Assembly (NCBI GenBank): GCA_017744365.1
Contig: JAGIBL010000001.1
Coordinates: 62,001 to 126,000 of the forward strand
DNA length: 64,000 nt
Direction of reading: 5' to 3'
Source of the DNA: Nocardioidaceae bacterium
Lineage (GTDB): Bacteria; Actinomycetota; Actinomycetes; Propionibacteriales; Nocardioidaceae
Below are positions 27,391-61,404 of the stretch, in pieces (within the stretch, counting starts at the first letter, position 1; each line of letters begins with the position of its first letter). The position numbers and the translations under genes were made by a program. The notes below the pieces were generated by a model. That model saw only the letters and a list, made by a program, of their open reading frames with translations. It ran no database searches and had not been told where the DNA came from.

Positions 27391-28611
27391 ATGACCTCAG
27401 CCCACGAGCAGATCAACGCGACGCTGGTCCTCCCGTACCTGAACCACGCCGTGCGCATGTACGAGCAGAAGTACGCCTCCCGCGCCGACATCGACGCCGC
27501 GATGCGCTTCGGCTGCGGCTACCCGCGCGGTCCGCTCACCACGTTGGACGAGATCGGGCTCGACGTCGTACGCGACCAGCTCGCCGCGCGGTACGCCGAG
27601 ACGAGCGACAACCTGCACAAGCCGGCCGACCTGCTCGAGTCGCTGGTCGCCGAGGGACGCACCGGCAAGGCCGCGGGCCGGGGCTTCTACTCGTACGACG
27701 GGGGCGAGATCGTCGCCGACGACGAGACCCCGGGCGCCGACGACAAGCCCTCGTTGCGCCACGAGATCGCCAAGGTCGGCGTCGTCGGCACTGGCACCAT
27801 GGCCGCCGGCATCGTCCAGGTGTTCGCCCAGGCCGGGTACGACGTCGTCTTCGTCGGTCGCAGCGACGAGAAGGCGTCGGCCGTCGTCGCCGGGATCACC
27901 AAGTCCCTCGACAAGCTGATCGAGAAGGGCAAGCTCACCGAGGACGACAAGTCCGACGTGGTCGAGCGGCTGATCGCCTCCACCGAGCGCGAGGCCCTGG
28001 GTGACGTGGACATCGTCGTCGAGGCGATCGCCGAGGACCTGGACGTCAAGCTCGAGCTCTTCGCTGACCTCGACCGGATCTGCAAGCCGGGCGCGATCCT
28101 GGCGACCACGACCTCGTCGCTGCCGATCACCCAGCTGGCCAACGCCACCGGTCGTCCCGAGTCGGTCATCGGCATGCACTTCTTCAACCCGGCTCCGGTG
28201 ATGAAGCTCGTCGAGGTGGTCACGACCGAGCTGACCGCCGACGACGTCGACGAGACCACCAAGGCACTCTGCGCCAGCGTCGGCAAGGTGGCCGTCTCCT
28301 GCGGCGACCGGGCCGGCTTCATCGTGAACGCGCTGCTGTTCCCGTACCTCAACGACGCCGTCAAGCTCTCCGAGACCGGCGTCGTGATCACCGAGATCGA
28401 CGAGGCGATCAAGGCCGAGGCGGGCTTCCCGATGGGCCCGTTCCAGCTGCTCGACGTGGTCGGCAACGACGTCTCCCTGGCCATCCAGAAGGAGCTCTTC
28501 GCCGAGTTCAAGGAGCCCGGCTTCGCGCCGGCCGCCGCGCTGGAGAAGGTCGTCGCCGACGGCCACCTTGGTCGCAAGACCAAGCGCGGGTTCCACGACT
28601 ACTCTGCCTGA
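27391..28611 (+). CDS. 3-hydroxyacyl-CoA dehydrogenase with duplicated C-terminal domain (C-N-C order)
   Basis: NAD-dependent 3-hydroxybutyryl/3-hydroxyacyl-CoA dehydrogenase, 406 residues. Domain order is unusual: residues 8-102 are a 3HCDH C-terminal domain (LPYLNHAVRMYE, GCGYPRGPLTTLDEIG), then an NAD-binding Rossmann domain (GTGTMAAG, 133-140; catalytic His in MHFFNPAPVM), then a second C-terminal domain (FPYLNDAVKLSE, GFPMGPFQLLDVVG, GRKTKRGFHDY). A typical enzyme has only the last two (about 285 residues). It could supply crotonyl-CoA precursors for the Ccr pathway at 39-43 kb. Ends in the 28610 repeat. Confidence 0.9.
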   Translation: MTSAHEQINATLVLPYLNHAVRMYEQKYASRADIDAAMRFGCGYPRGPLTTLDEIGLDVVRDQLAARYAETSDNLHKPADLLESLVAEGRTGKAAGRGFYSYDGGEIVADDETPGADDKPSLRHEIAKVGVVGTGTMAAGIVQVFAQAGYDVVFVGRSDEKASAVVAGITKSLDKLIEKGKLTEDDKSDVVERLIASTEREALGDVDIVVEAIAEDLDVKLELFADLDRICKPGAILATTTSSLPITQLANATGRPESVIGMHFFNPAPVMKLVEVVTTELTADDVDETTKALCASVGKVAVSCGDRAGFIVNALLFPYLNDAVKLSETGVVITEIDEAIKAEAGFPMGPFQLLDVVGNDVSLAIQKELFAEFKEPGFAPAAALEKVVADGHLGRKTKRGFHDYSA

Positions 28612-28832
28612 TTGCCTCGCTGCGCTTCGGCTGCCCGAGCGCCTTGGGCGGTCCGTCTTCCCTCCTCGCTGGCTCGCAGGCTCGCTTCGCTCGTCAGTCC
28701 AGACGGACCGGGCGCTCGGGCGCGTGATTGCCTCGCTGCGCTTCGGCTGCCCGAGCGCCTTGGGCGGTCCGTCTTCCCTCCTCGCAGGCTCGCTTCGCTC
28801 GTCAGTCCAGACGGACCGGGCGCTCGGGCGCG
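28610..28832. repeat. Tandem intergenic repeat with palindromic arms (two copies)
   Basis: Copy 1 is 28610-28724 (115 bp) and copy 2 is 28726-28832 (107 bp). They are identical apart from an 8-bp deletion (TGGCTCGC) in copy 2. In copy 1 GCCCGAGCGCC (28633-28643) and GGTCCGTCT (28650-28658) pair with AGACGGACC (28701-28709) and GGCGCTCGGGC (28711-28721), forming a long hairpin. It separates convergent genes and overlaps the last two bases of the dehydrogenase stop codon. A bidirectional terminator role is plausible; no T-run is present. Confidence 0.85.
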
Positions 28833-43468: not shown

Positions 43469-44283
43469 GGATCGTCGTCACCGGCGCGGGCCCGGACTCG
43501 ATCGGGCTGGCCACGGCCGTGGCTCTGCGCGACCTCGGCCACGAGGTGGTCGTCACCACCCGGTCGGTCCCGGTGGACGGGTTCGCCTGGCACCCGCTGG
43601 ACCTGGCCTCGCGCACGTCGGTCGCCGCCTTCGCGAGCTGGTTTGGTGCGACGTACGACGGACTCGACGCGCTCGTGAACAACGCCGGCATCCACCTCGA
43701 CCTGCGCTCGACGTGGAAGCAGCCGCAGCTCGTGGACGGCCACGAGATCCACTGGCGCACCAACTACCTCGGCACCGCCGACCTGACCCGGGCGCTGCTG
43801 CCGCTGCTGCTCTCCGCGCCCGACCCGCGGGTGGTGCACGTGGTCTCCAAGCTGCACGAGCGCGGCCGCAACGAGGCGTTCTTCTCCGCGTTCGGAGACG
43901 GCTACGACTCCTGGGTGGCCTACGGGACGTCCAAGCTGGCCCTGGTCCACGACGCCGCCTCGCTCGCCGTACGGCACCCGGGTCTGCGTGCGTACTCGCT
44001 GCACCCCGGCTCGGTCTACACCCACATCGCCGATCGCGGCCTGGAGACCGCGCCGCTGCTCGGGCGGCTGCGGGCGCTGGCCGCGCCGCTGGAGCGGCGG
44101 ATGCTCGCCACGCCCGCGCAGGGCGCCGAGACGAGCGTGCACTGCGTGACCGCGCCGGACGCGACCTCCGGCTACTACCGCCGCAGCGCGCCTGCCGAAC
44201 CGGCTCCGCAGGCTGGCGACGAGGCCGCGCGTGCGGCACTCTGGGCCCGCACGTCGGACTGGCTGGTGGAGGAGGCTCGATGA
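43465..44283 (+). CDS. Short-chain dehydrogenase/reductase family protein
   Basis: 272 residues. Atypical cofactor loop VTGAGPDSIGLATAVAL instead of TGxxxGIG, then NNAG (VNNAGIHLDL) and the catalytic Tyr-x3-Lys in AYGTSKLALVH. Closest in style to retinol-dehydrogenase-like SDRs. Substrate unknown. The ATG overlaps the meaB stop by 4 nt and its own stop overlaps the next ATG by 4 nt, so it belongs to the thiolase-meaB operon; an acyl-CoA-linked reaction is a guess. Confidence 0.85.
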   Translation: MRIVVTGAGPDSIGLATAVALRDLGHEVVVTTRSVPVDGFAWHPLDLASRTSVAAFASWFGATYDGLDALVNNAGIHLDLRSTWKQPQLVDGHEIHWRTNYLGTADLTRALLPLLLSAPDPRVVHVVSKLHERGRNEAFFSAFGDGYDSWVAYGTSKLALVHDAASLAVRHPGLRAYSLHPGSVYTHIADRGLETAPLLGRLRALAAPLERRMLATPAQGAETSVHCVTAPDATSGYYRRSAPAEPAPQAGDEAARAALWARTSDWLVEEAR

Positions 44284-44765
44284 CCGTCGCGACGGGACCG
44301 GTCACGCAGGTGTGCTGGGTGACCGAGGACATCGAGGCCACCGAGCGGCTGCTCACGCAGTCCTTCGGCGTCGCCGCCTGGACCCGGCTGCCGGACATCC
44401 ACTTCGACCCCGAGCACTGCACCTTCCGTGGCGAGCCGGCCGACTTCGTGGTGCACGTGTCCCTGGCCTATGCCGGCGACCTGCAGCTCGAGCTGATCCA
44501 GCCGGTGCGCGGGGAGTCGATCTACACCGAGTTCCTGTCCCGCTCCGGGCCCGGCCTGCACCACGTCTGCTTCGAGGTCGACGACATGGCGGTCGCCCTG
44601 CGGGCCGCCGCCGCGGAGGGACTCCCGGTGCTCCAGGCCGGCTCGATGATGGACGGCGCCATGGACTTCGCCTACGTCGACGGCGCCGCCCACGGGGTCC
44701 CGTACGTCGAGCTCGCCCGCCTCGGCCCCGACATGCGCGCCTTCTACGCCGCCCTTCCCCGTTGA
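44280..44765 (+). CDS. VOC (glyoxalase-fold) family protein
   Basis: 161 residues with VOC repeats: VTQVCWVTEDIEATERLL at the N-terminus, GDLQLELIQPVRGESIYTEFL in the middle, GPGLHHVCFEVDDMAVAL and a final GVPYVELARLGPDM. Ligands typical of the family appear as Glu in QLELIQP, His in GLHHV and Glu in VPYVELA, but the first His is replaced (VCWVTED). Last gene of the thiolase-meaB-SDR-VOC operon. A second acyl-CoA epimerase or an isomerase is possible; function not assigned. Followed by the 22-bp repeat palindrome. Confidence 0.82.
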   Translation: MTVATGPVTQVCWVTEDIEATERLLTQSFGVAAWTRLPDIHFDPEHCTFRGEPADFVVHVSLAYAGDLQLELIQPVRGESIYTEFLSRSGPGLHHVCFEVDDMAVALRAAAAEGLPVLQAGSMMDGAMDFAYVDGAAHGVPYVELARLGPDMRAFYAALPR

Positions 44766-44769
44766 CCCG

Positions 44770-44969
44770 CGAATCCGGCCTTCTGGCCTGCCGAATCCGG
44801 CCTTCTGGTCGCGCGAATCAGGCCTCCTGGTCGCGCGAATCCAGCCTCGTGGTGCATCGACACGCCCGGTCGCGCGTGTCGGTGGGCCAAAACCCCGGTT
44901 TCGGTGGGCCAGAAACCAGGTGTCGGCGGGCCAAGACCCTGGTTTCGGCGGACCACAAGGCCGGTTTCG
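44770..44969. repeat. Nested palindrome of 22-bp repeats, element 1 (4 forward, 4 inverted)
   Basis: Forward units start at 44770, 44792, 44814 and 44836 (type CGAATCCGGCCTTCTGG...). A 24-bp centre (44858-44881) is itself palindromic, CGACACG...CGTGTCG. Inverted units start at 44882, 44904, 44926 and 44948 (type GTGGGCCAxAAxCCxGGTTT). The 22-bp spacing is exact on both sides. It occupies most of the 289-bp gap after the VOC gene. The same design recurs at 61251-61404. Confidence 0.85.
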
Positions 44970-45054: not shown

Positions 45055-45234
45055 ATGACCGGCGTGCTGAAGAAGGGCTTGGTGCTCCTCGTCGTCGTTT
45101 TCATCGGGTTCTACATGTTCAACGACCCCAACGGGCTGGCGCAGACGACCAAGGACGCGAGCGCCGGGCTCTGGGACGGGCTCACCAACCTGTTCGGGGC
45201 GATGATCGACTTCCTCGACGCCATCAAGTCCTAG
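45055..45234 (+). CDS. Small single-pass membrane protein of unknown function
   Basis: 59 residues: KK start, one membrane helix (about 7-23, GLVLLVVVFIGFYMFND), then an amphipathic segment TKDASAGLWDGLTNLFGAMIDFLDAIKS that could lie on the membrane surface. A GAGGAG site (45041-45046) lies 8 nt before the ATG, supporting expression. Followed at 22 nt by the PH-domain membrane protein, likely co-transcribed. Function unknown. Confidence 0.75.
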   Translation: MTGVLKKGLVLLVVVFIGFYMFNDPNGLAQTTKDASAGLWDGLTNLFGAMIDFLDAIKS

Positions 45235-60392: not shown

Positions 60393-61334
60393 GTGAACCT
60401 CCGCCACTCGCTGCTCGCCACCCTCGTCGCCGTGATCTGGGGTGTGAACTTCGTGGTCATCGAGTGGGGCATGCACGACGTGCCGCCGCTGCTGTTCGCG
60501 GCGATCCGGTTCACCGCGGTGGTGCTGCCGGCGATCTTCTTCGTGCCGCGTCCGCGGGCGCCCTGGCGGACGGTGGCCGCCGTCGGCACGTTCATGTCGC
60601 TGGGCCAGTTCGGCCTGCTCTACAGCGCGATGCACGCCGGCATGCCGCCCGGGCTGGCTGCCCTGGTGCTGCAGGCGCAGGTGCTGTTCACGGTGCTGAT
60701 CGCGGCCGGCTGGATCGGGGAGCGTCCGACCCGCCGGCAGCTGACCGGCATCGCGATCGGTGCGCTCGGCCTGGTCGTGGTCGGCGTCGGCCGCGGCGGT
60801 CACGTCCCGCTGGGCGCGCTGCTGCTCTGCCTGGCTGCCGCGCTGTCCTGGGGCGTCGGCAACGTGGTCTCGCGCCGGGCGGGCGTCTCCTCGGGACTCT
60901 CGCTCGCGGTCTGGTCCTCGCTGGTGGTGCCGGTGCCGTTGCTCGGGCTCTCCCTGCTGCTGGACGGGCCGGGTCGGGTCGGCGACGCGCTGGCCGGCTT
61001 CGGCTGGCAGGCCGGGCTGTCCACGCTGTACACCGCGGGACTGGCCTCGCTGGTCGGCTACTCGATCTTCAACGGGCTGCTCGCCCGCTACCCGGCCTCC
61101 TCGGTCACCCCGTTCGTGCTCATCGCGCCGCCGGTGGCCATGTTCAGCGCTTGGGTGTTCCTCGACCAGGTCCCCAACGCCGCCGAGAGCATCGGCGGGA
61201 TCGTCGTGCTCGCCGGGGTCCTGCTGACCGTCCTGCGCCCGCCCTCCCGTCGAATCAGGCCTTCTGGTCCGCCGAGTCCGGCTGTTTGGCCCGCCGAAAC
61301 CGGTCTGGTGGTCGCGGCGGACCAGAAGGCCTGA
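60393..61334 (+). CDS. EamA/DMT-family transporter with repeat-derived C-terminus
   Basis: 313 residues from a GTG, ten membrane helices in two EamA repeats (LLATLVAVIWGVNFVVIEWGM; LGALLLCLAAALSWGVGNVVSRRAG). Probable YdcZ/RhtA-like metabolite exporter. Membrane helix 10 ends at LLTVLRPP; the remaining 30 or so residues (SRRIRPSGPPSPAVWPAETG...) are translated from the 22-bp repeat array, and the stop codon lies inside a repeat unit. The tail is therefore likely non-functional. Divergent from the LysR gene. Confidence 0.88.
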   Translation: MNLRHSLLATLVAVIWGVNFVVIEWGMHDVPPLLFAAIRFTAVVLPAIFFVPRPRAPWRTVAAVGTFMSLGQFGLLYSAMHAGMPPGLAALVLQAQVLFTVLIAAGWIGERPTRRQLTGIAIGALGLVVVGVGRGGHVPLGALLLCLAAALSWGVGNVVSRRAGVSSGLSLAVWSSLVVPVPLLGLSLLLDGPGRVGDALAGFGWQAGLSTLYTAGLASLVGYSIFNGLLARYPASSVTPFVLIAPPVAMFSAWVFLDQVPNAAESIGGIVVLAGVLLTVLRPPSRRIRPSGPPSPAVWPAETGLVVAADQKA

Positions 61335-61404
61335 TTCGCGGGGCCAGGAGGCCTGATTCGCGGGGCCAGGAGGCCTGATTCGCGGGGCCAGGAGGCCTGA
61401 TTCG
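61251..61404. repeat. Nested palindrome of 22-bp repeats, element 2 (3 forward, 4 inverted)
   Basis: Seven contiguous 22-bp units: forward at 61251, 61273 and 61295; inverted at 61317, 61339, 61361 and 61383. The last three are identical to each other. The first forward unit and its extension (61251-61274) form a perfect 24-bp inverted repeat with 61315-61338, around a 40-bp spacer. The array begins inside the EamA gene and ends 15 bp before the convergent Nudix gene. Confidence 0.9.

Follow-up and report, generated by a model that had tools for sequence, protein, structure and literature searches.

The window analysed here is a stretch of 64,000 nucleotides from a Nocardioidaceae bacterium (assembly GCA_017744365.1, contig JAGIBL010000001.1). 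It contains two arrays of 22-bp units, termed element 1 and element 2, whose coordinates are collected in Table 1. Element 1 lies between two genes of the same direction. The upstream gene, which we take to encode a VOC/glyoxalase-like protein, ends with a TGA codon (44763-44765) followed by CCCG, and the first full unit of element 1 starts 4 bases past this stop codon. The next called open reading frame is at 45055. Element 2 is located between called convergent genes.

Table 1. Coordinates of the two repeat elements and of the gene upstream of element 1 in the window.
Feature	Position	Strand	Description
Gene upstream of element 1	44280..44765	+	Stop codon adjoins element 1
CCCG before left arm of element 1	44766-44769		Probably a partial unit
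Element 1, left arm	44770..44857	+	Four 22-bp units at 44770, 44792, 44814, 44836
Element 1, centre	44858..44881	none	24-bp imperfect palindrome CGACACGCCCGGTCGCGCGTGTCG
Element 1, right arm	44882..44969	-	Four inverted 22-bp units at 44882, 44904, 44926, 44948
Element 2, left arm	61251..61316	+	Three units at 61251, 61273, 61295
Element 2, right arm	61317..61404	-	Four inverted units at 61317, 61339, 61361, 61383

Architecture and copies of the arrays

The original prediction had described element 1 as four forward units on a 22-bp period, a palindromic 24-bp centre and four inverted units on the same period. This description was correct in all its parts, with the qualification that the palindrome is imperfect. 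Unit spacing is exactly 22 in each arm, and the arms and the centre are all in register. The element had also been said not to be a CRISPR, and indeed the units are contiguous, their spacing of 22 equals the unit length and there are no unique spacers. Tandem Repeats Finder, applied to the window, scored the two arms of element 1 with 116 and 98 and the element at 61312-61404 with 161. The unit consensus in the source genome is CGAATC-CGG-CCTTC-TGG-CCCGC, with positions 1-6, 8-9 and 15-17 being the strongest. When the window alone was scanned loosely for the unit (3 mismatches), 27 matches were obtained against 29.8 expected. Since this is chance level, the excess over chance lies in the phase and clustering of the units. 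Elsewhere in the window, a 108-bp unit occurs twice in tandem at 28609-28832 (93% matches).

Further copies in the genome and in relatives had been proposed as a check, and these were found. Allowing one mismatch, the unit pattern matched 61 times in the source genome and its reversed control 2 times. A weight-matrix scan of the window and of 24 stretches around pattern matches revealed 118 unit-like hits, including a few singletons. In total, 26 arrays of at least two units were found in this genome, two of them being the flanks of a nuclease gene in locus L051. By layout, 10 are forward-then-inverted, one is inverted-then-forward and 15 are one-sided. Same-strand spacing was 22 in 78 of 78 cases in the source genome, in 189 of 190 in Nocardioides sp. 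TF02-7 and in 43 of 43 in zg-DK7169, counts that arise partly by construction, because a weak hit was retained only if another lay 22 bp away. The pattern of the 24-bp centre (at most one mismatch) was present in the source genome only in the centres of four arrays. Element 1 is a member of a dispersed DNA element family with about two dozen gene-less copies in this genome.

Within the genus, an exact single-unit pattern matched two of 24 genomes, the source genome and G029 with one hit. Across the family, 24 of 341 genomes matched a two-unit pattern in which one mismatch was allowed, and none matched the reversed control. Twelve of these genomes had at least three matches, six had two and six had one; the single matches may be due to chance. 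A three-unit pattern retrieved 64 stretches from the genome contig collection, located in TF02-7, zg-DK7169, N. jejuensis, three Pseudonocardia species, an Actinophytocola MAG and a doubtful Archangiaceae MAG. Array arms reach up to 11 units. The Archangiaceae MAG contig (L149, 3530 bp) carries eleven 22-bp units of a related pattern and may be mis-binned or a coding repeat. Another repeat, containing GGTTCATCAAGG and present in direct and inverted copies, was observed in TF02-7 (L103) between the arrays at 1553-1684 and 2767-2854.

Position at gene ends and folding

Gene orientation was called with a simple codon-position script, some calls of which may be wrong; on these calls, 14 of the 26 arrays of the source genome lie in convergent gaps, 12 in co-directional gaps and none in a divergent gap. 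Among the remaining gaps of these loci that measure 30 bp or more, 7 were convergent, 50 co-directional and 33 divergent (Fisher 1.2e-6). Of the 28 arrays of TF02-7, 11 lie in convergent gaps, 8 in co-directional gaps, 4 in divergent gaps and 2 within called genes; 3 at locus edges were dropped (p 1.5e-4). For zg-DK7169, 6 of 10 arrays were convergent, 2 co-directional and 1 divergent (p 0.003). P. autotrophica had 8 convergent and 6 co-directional among 15 arrays (p 3e-4), P. halophobica 8 and 9 among 18 (p 0.003) and P. kujensis 3 and 2 among 8 (p 0.05). Only one of five arrays was convergent in N. jejuensis (p 0.7). Many arrays begin beside stop codons. Where a one-sided array separates co-directional genes, it follows the direction of these genes in 23 cases and opposes it in 5; P. 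autotrophica and P. halophobica share loci in this count.

Two of the array sites were compared with those of congeners. At the site of element 1, the array was absent in 9 of 9 congeners with an orthologue of the upstream gene, and the six that keep the next genes too (G001, G004, G007, G021, G022, G023) have a short gap there. At a second site (L039), the source genome has an array of about 170 bp, and the convergent genes overlap at CTAG in G001, G003 and G011; no 22-bp array was seen at this site in the other congeners compared. Thus, whole arrays were added near stop codons. A target-site duplication was not visible at these two sites, the congeners being 60-82% identical in the flanking gene. 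At the orthologous L039 site of G027 (L204), the gap holds a short tandem repeat of different sequence (CCGGTGGTTGAGCCT-like).

The placement beside stop codons, the preference for convergent gaps and the prevailing gene sense of the one-sided arrays would all suit terminators or insulators at gene 3' ends, acting as RNA or as a bound roadblock and taken up around nuclease genes. The arrays in divergent gaps of TF02-7 and zg-DK7169 speak against such a role, as does the folding of half arrays. As RNA, element 1 folds better than shuffled sequences (z -5.88, 0 of 200 shuffles as low), which is expected of any inverted repeat. Half arrays alone had a mean fold z of -0.81 in the source genome (28 half arrays), -0.57 in TF02-7 (44) and -2.36 in zg-DK7169 (12), hence they fold about like shuffles in the first two genomes and moderately better in the third.

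The original prediction had further stated that the two halves still pair and that the fold seems to be conserved, and had named a lack of compensatory changes between them as a refutation. Conservation of the fold was not supported. The core bases (positions 7-14) of nested partner units agreed less than those of cross-array partners in all three genomes: 0.519 vs 0.582 in the source genome (10 arrays, 498 of 500 shuffles at least as high), 0.688 vs 0.747 in TF02-7 (15 arrays, 498 of 500 shuffles) and 0.420 vs 0.621 in zg-DK7169 (5 arrays, 500 of 500 shuffles). An avoidance of perfect arms would be expected if long perfect hairpins are harmful. At gathering score, Rfam 15 detected no family at either element; its only match in the window was an L31-Actinobacteria ribosomal protein leader at 1259-1301. 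The arm comparison, the half-array folds and the Rfam search argue against a structured RNA with a conserved fold. Of the originally suggested structured RNA, cruciform or nucleoid-binding element, the third, a protein-binding DNA element, fits better than a structured RNA. Likewise, arms that avoid complementarity, and half arrays with no clear folding advantage over shuffles in two of the three genomes, make the terminator or insulator explanation improbable.

A predicted nuclease gene between array halves

Fourteen intervals between a forward and an inverted run were listed. The genes in two of them, one in the source genome (L051) and one in TF02-7 (L122), were homologous, and tblastn over the array loci detected relatives between array halves also in G128 (L087) and P. 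kujensis (L120). The same gene family is therefore found between array halves in four genomes, with identities to the L051 protein of 56, 50 and 34% for TF02-7, G128 and P. kujensis, respectively. The nuclease gene of the source genome (G000) lies outside the window, at G000:C9:274669-275580. None of the other genes examined between array halves recurs (14 intervals, six proteins scanned), which argues against a transposon with any cargo. A search of viral contigs with the pattern gave 9 stretches, none of which encodes a relative.

Pfam matches comprised AbiEi_4 and DUF559/MTES_1575, with AbiEi_4 above its cut-off in two proteins and some scores under the curated cut-offs. The protein of the source genome scored 22.5 bits with DUF559 (cut-off 20.6) and 30.1 with MTES_1575 (below the cut-off of 38.2), and the TF02-7 protein reached 20.5 with DUF559, just under the cut-off of 20.6. 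PADLOC models of AbiEi matched three of three proteins (residues 24-194 of the source genome protein, E 1.9e-13). The alignment keeps the motif LD...AVEYD...H, which we take to be that of DUF559; the DUF559/MTES_1575 nuclease is presumably Vsr-like with a PD-(D/E)XK fold. By these matches, the gene product is a predicted endonuclease in which an AbiEi-like part is fused to a DUF559/MTES_1575 nuclease. A sequence search of the PDB with the nuclease gave no match, and a structure prediction from two input sequences was too poor for use (mean pLDDT 44).

Relatives were detected in 322 of 341 family genomes (E 1e-20; six candidates were scored per genome, of which 1 to 6 matched), and the source genome has seven copies (E 1e-3). 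Since unit patterns match only 24 of the 341 genomes, the nearly ubiquitous gene alone is not the cause of the spread, and the nuclease as sole cause of many arrays was rejected.

Bracketing by arrays was scored with custom scripts at 80 loci (L247-L326), the regions around high-scoring matches taken top-down with gaps, so that some genomes gave two or three. The threshold for flanks, 19.6, was the maximum of 76 controls shifted by 2.5 kb. Inverted flanks above it were present at 69 of the 80 loci, which are not independent (they are relatives of proteins first chosen for flanking arrays, and the genomes are not independent either), compared with 4 of 345 other like-sized genes in the same regions and 4 of 89 such genes lying between convergent genes. 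Direct flank matches exceeded the threshold at 12 of 80 loci. A null of flank pairs from different loci gave scores up to 300, presumably through orthologous sites in opposite orientation; none of the 80 loci was above its 99% point (248.6) and 67 were above its 95% point (21.0). The 99% point was thus of no use as a threshold, and the shifted flanks and the other genes served as controls instead.

Tandem repeats of 21, 22 or 44 bp were found at 72 of 80 nuclease loci, against 7 of 345 other genes and 2 of 89 in convergent gaps; flanks shifted by 2.5 kb showed a tandem repeat, whatever its period, in 9 of 76 cases. A strict tandem test placed a 21/22-bp array beside the gene at 44 of 80 loci, at 11 of them on both sides. 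The period was 21, 22 or 44 in 65 of 68 arrays near the gene, and 21 or 22 in 9 of 19 in the rest of the regions. Wherever arrays were called on both sides, they were inverted copies of each other (17 of 17 loci; 17-21 of 22 bases agree inverted, 11-15 direct). The nuclease gene lay between convergent genes in 65 of the 79 classed regions (one region was unclassed), the baseline being 105 of 816 gene pairs.

Six of the seven copies in the source genome have inverted flanks above 19.6, the exception being L330; at L332 the direct flank match (24.4) is higher than the inverted one (21.0). The bracketing repeats differ among these copies: by eye, those of L327, L328 and L329 are about 32-34 bp long, and L331 has a perfect 22-bp inverted pair. 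Distant relatives also occur on plasmids. Four of nine records were examined, and two from Arthrobacter and one from Tsukamurella had inverted flanks above 19.6, with direct scores also high in two (20.6 and 40.2). A nuclease fragment in a Nonomuraea plasmid record had no inverted flanks above 19.6. One Arthrobacter record has a repeat period of 31. In helical terms, periods near 21/22 amount to roughly two turns and those of 31-34 to roughly three.

Gene-less repeats at gene ends together with an enzyme gene flanked by repeats are also the life style of REP, BIME or REPIN populations moved by a RAYT transposase. The corresponding domain Y1_Tnp (PF01797) was found in 0 of 19 genomes, eight of them array-rich, and in 5 of 14 control genomes. 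For the 19 genomes searched this refutes RAYT-moved repeats, barring a RAYT too divergent for the model, and leaves that explanation hardly any probability.

Upstream of the gene, the motif TCCACA was present in gene sense within 220 bp in 73 of 80 cases and in 51 of 1315 control windows; these were random and hence mostly coding, and part of the excess may be a promoter effect. The fuller TTRTCCACA was found in 14 of 80 cases vs 1 of 2630 control windows. The consensus is roughly YYGTCCACAGG, mostly 60-120 bp before the start of the nuclease match, and resembles what we take to be the actinobacterial DnaA box. In zg-DK7169 (L134, about 7145), TTCTCCACAG stands in the centre of a gene-less array and may be left over from the promoter region of the nuclease.

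The gene-bearing copy of the source genome lies beside a gene presumably encoding a Crp-like regulator. At this site the nuclease is present in 9 of 24 genus genomes, and no relative was found there in the other 15. The best 21/22 self-match (of 44) was 31-41 at seven of the nine occupied sites, with the remaining two scoring 23 and 29; the 15 sites without the nuclease scored 21-29. Decay of the gene in congeners, considered because of stops inside the matches, was rejected, as open frames with the nuclease motif exist at 7 of 9 occupied sites; G001 is cut by a contig end and G020 gave none. In a tree of 81 proteins, 28 of them without a site label and 19 from the crp-like site, the seven site labels jointly need 6 changes, which is the minimum (shuffled mean 30.8). 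Taken singly, five labels need one change, crp needs three and the four-member s4 needs three, which is near chance (25 of 500 shuffles). The identities of the nucleases correlate with those of crp DNA (r 0.71), at a far lower level (0.44-0.84 vs 0.83-0.97). Because divergence tracks the neighbouring gene and lineages are mostly site-faithful, much of this history is vertical descent. It looks like long residence in which vertical descent with loss prevails and moves are rare, similar to what PMC8049555 describes for RAYT genes.

Unit sequences vary between loci. Across 47 loci their similarity rises with protein identity (r 0.31 over the entire protein, 0 of 999 permutations; 0.28 for the first quarter, 0 of 999; 0.18 for the last third, 2 of 999), a correlation that can arise from relatedness alone. 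In 14 genomes, gene-less arrays, defined as array loci without a relative by tblastn, matched the flanks of the nuclease of their own genome with an average of 18.93 of 22 bases and those of the other 13 with 16.45 (0 of 9999 permutations); one nuclease locus per genome was compared, and other loci may be the true source. The own genome was the single best match in six cases (G000, G128, G129, G154, G171, G271), tied in G319 and beaten in seven, with the own match below or at the average of the others in G246 and G253. Units that follow the nuclease lineage are unneeded for termination and count further against terminators.

The same data bear on a reading of the arrays as operators, by which the AbiEi-like part would repress its own gene from phased sites to either side of it and gene-less arrays would be remnants of lost nuclease loci, nothing having moved. 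The upstream TCCACA motif, the mostly site-faithful lineages and the seven of 14 cases in which the own genome is not the best match agree with it, and AbiEi proteins are described in PMC7319586 as autoregulating via 23-bp repeats. However, 31 of the arrays called among the 80 loci are directly downstream of the gene, and the 24-bp centre common to four gene-less arrays is explained by copying and not by independent losses. Congener gaps with kept neighbours are moreover too short for the gene at the element 1 and L039 sites. We regard the operator reading as unlikely.

Interpretation and comparison with known systems

The explanation that we favour, with modest confidence, is that element 1 is a gene-less, non-autonomous copy of a nuclease-linked array element, the arrays being binding sites and the gene-less arrays spreading in trans. 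In its full form, such an element would consist of an array of 21/22-bp units, a promoter region, the predicted endonuclease gene and an inverted array. The units point inward from both flanks and fill much of the gap between the stop codons of mostly convergent neighbours. AbiEi is described in PMC7319586 as binding two 23-bp repeats; according to the same source, the four repeats upstream of rv2827c can be occupied simultaneously. A unit of 21/22 bp is about one such site, and the arrays may thus be read as binding sites of the nuclease. Each monomer would bind a single unit through its AbiEi-like part, all on the same face of the helix, with 21/22 bp as two turns and 31-34 bp as three. The nuclease would act at or near the array ends, and repair would insert copies of the arrays at the 3' ends of genes, the nuclease gene being included or not. 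Most nuclease lineages in the sampled genomes stay at one site, and gene-less arrays have multiplied in some genomes, including the source genome. From the protein family and the geometry, we infer with fair confidence that the nuclease binds the units; that it also cuts and mobilises them, and how targets would be chosen, we propose with more reserve.

More tentative is a generalisation to a two-tier mobile system in Actinomycetota. Here, AbiEi-DUF559 lineages would each read their own repeat 'address', arranged in helical phase (two or three turns) as inverted arrays that span the gap between two stop codons. Each lineage would stay mostly at one gene end, and in some genomes gene-less addresses would be copied in trans to dozens of others. 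That the arrays occur both without a gene and around the nuclease gene points to a mobile element of an unrecognised kind, which would settle at gene ends and may also account for gene-end repeats in high-GC bacteria without RAYT genes. The strict geometry (inverted, phased, lineage-specific and beside stop codons) would let the DNA target be read from sequence, so that binding, cutting and spread are directly testable. No published description of such arrays was found in the literature searched, in which DUF559 appears in no title or abstract, and we know of no established role for AbiEi-DUF559 genes.

Several known systems share features with these arrays. MITEs and transposons with repeated ends, such as Tn7, whose ends carry 22-bp TnsB sites, also have gene-less copies with inverted, repeated ends, as seen here at 17 of 17 and 69 of 80 loci. 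Arms here reach the lengths given above, and no target-site duplication was seen at the two sites, where congeners are only 60-82% identical in the flanking gene. The AbiE type IV toxin-antitoxin system shares the AbiEi-like region, and its AbiEi has known 23-bp binding repeats (PMC7319586). Here, however, the AbiEi-like part is joined to a nuclease domain, the gene mostly lies between convergent genes and apparently not in an operon, and arrays are found on both of its sides. Free-standing homing endonucleases such as T4 seg and mob are likewise lone nuclease genes between conserved genes (PMC2988022), and presence or absence at one fixed site, as in the 9 of 24 genomes here, is a further likeness. 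They differ in that inverted tandem arrays bracket the gene here and gene-less arrays lie elsewhere; the T4 free-standing families described in that source are GIY-YIG and HNH.

The REPIN-RAYT system shares with the arrays an enzyme gene that is inherited at its site and flanked by the repeats, together with a dispersed extragenic population of non-autonomous repeats. RAYTs are described as single-copy and vertically inherited genes that still replicate REPINs (PMC8049555). In the arrays the enzyme is another one, an AbiEi-DUF559 nuclease and not a Y1 tyrosine transposase, and several enzyme copies per genome are possible, as in the source genome. The repeat is a phased 21/22-bp tandem array with a sequence that varies by lineage. 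If the favoured explanation is true, the arrays and their gene would form a counterpart of RAYT/REPIN that is built on a nuclease; in the more tentative two-tier form, a large family of orphan nucleases would thereby gain a function.
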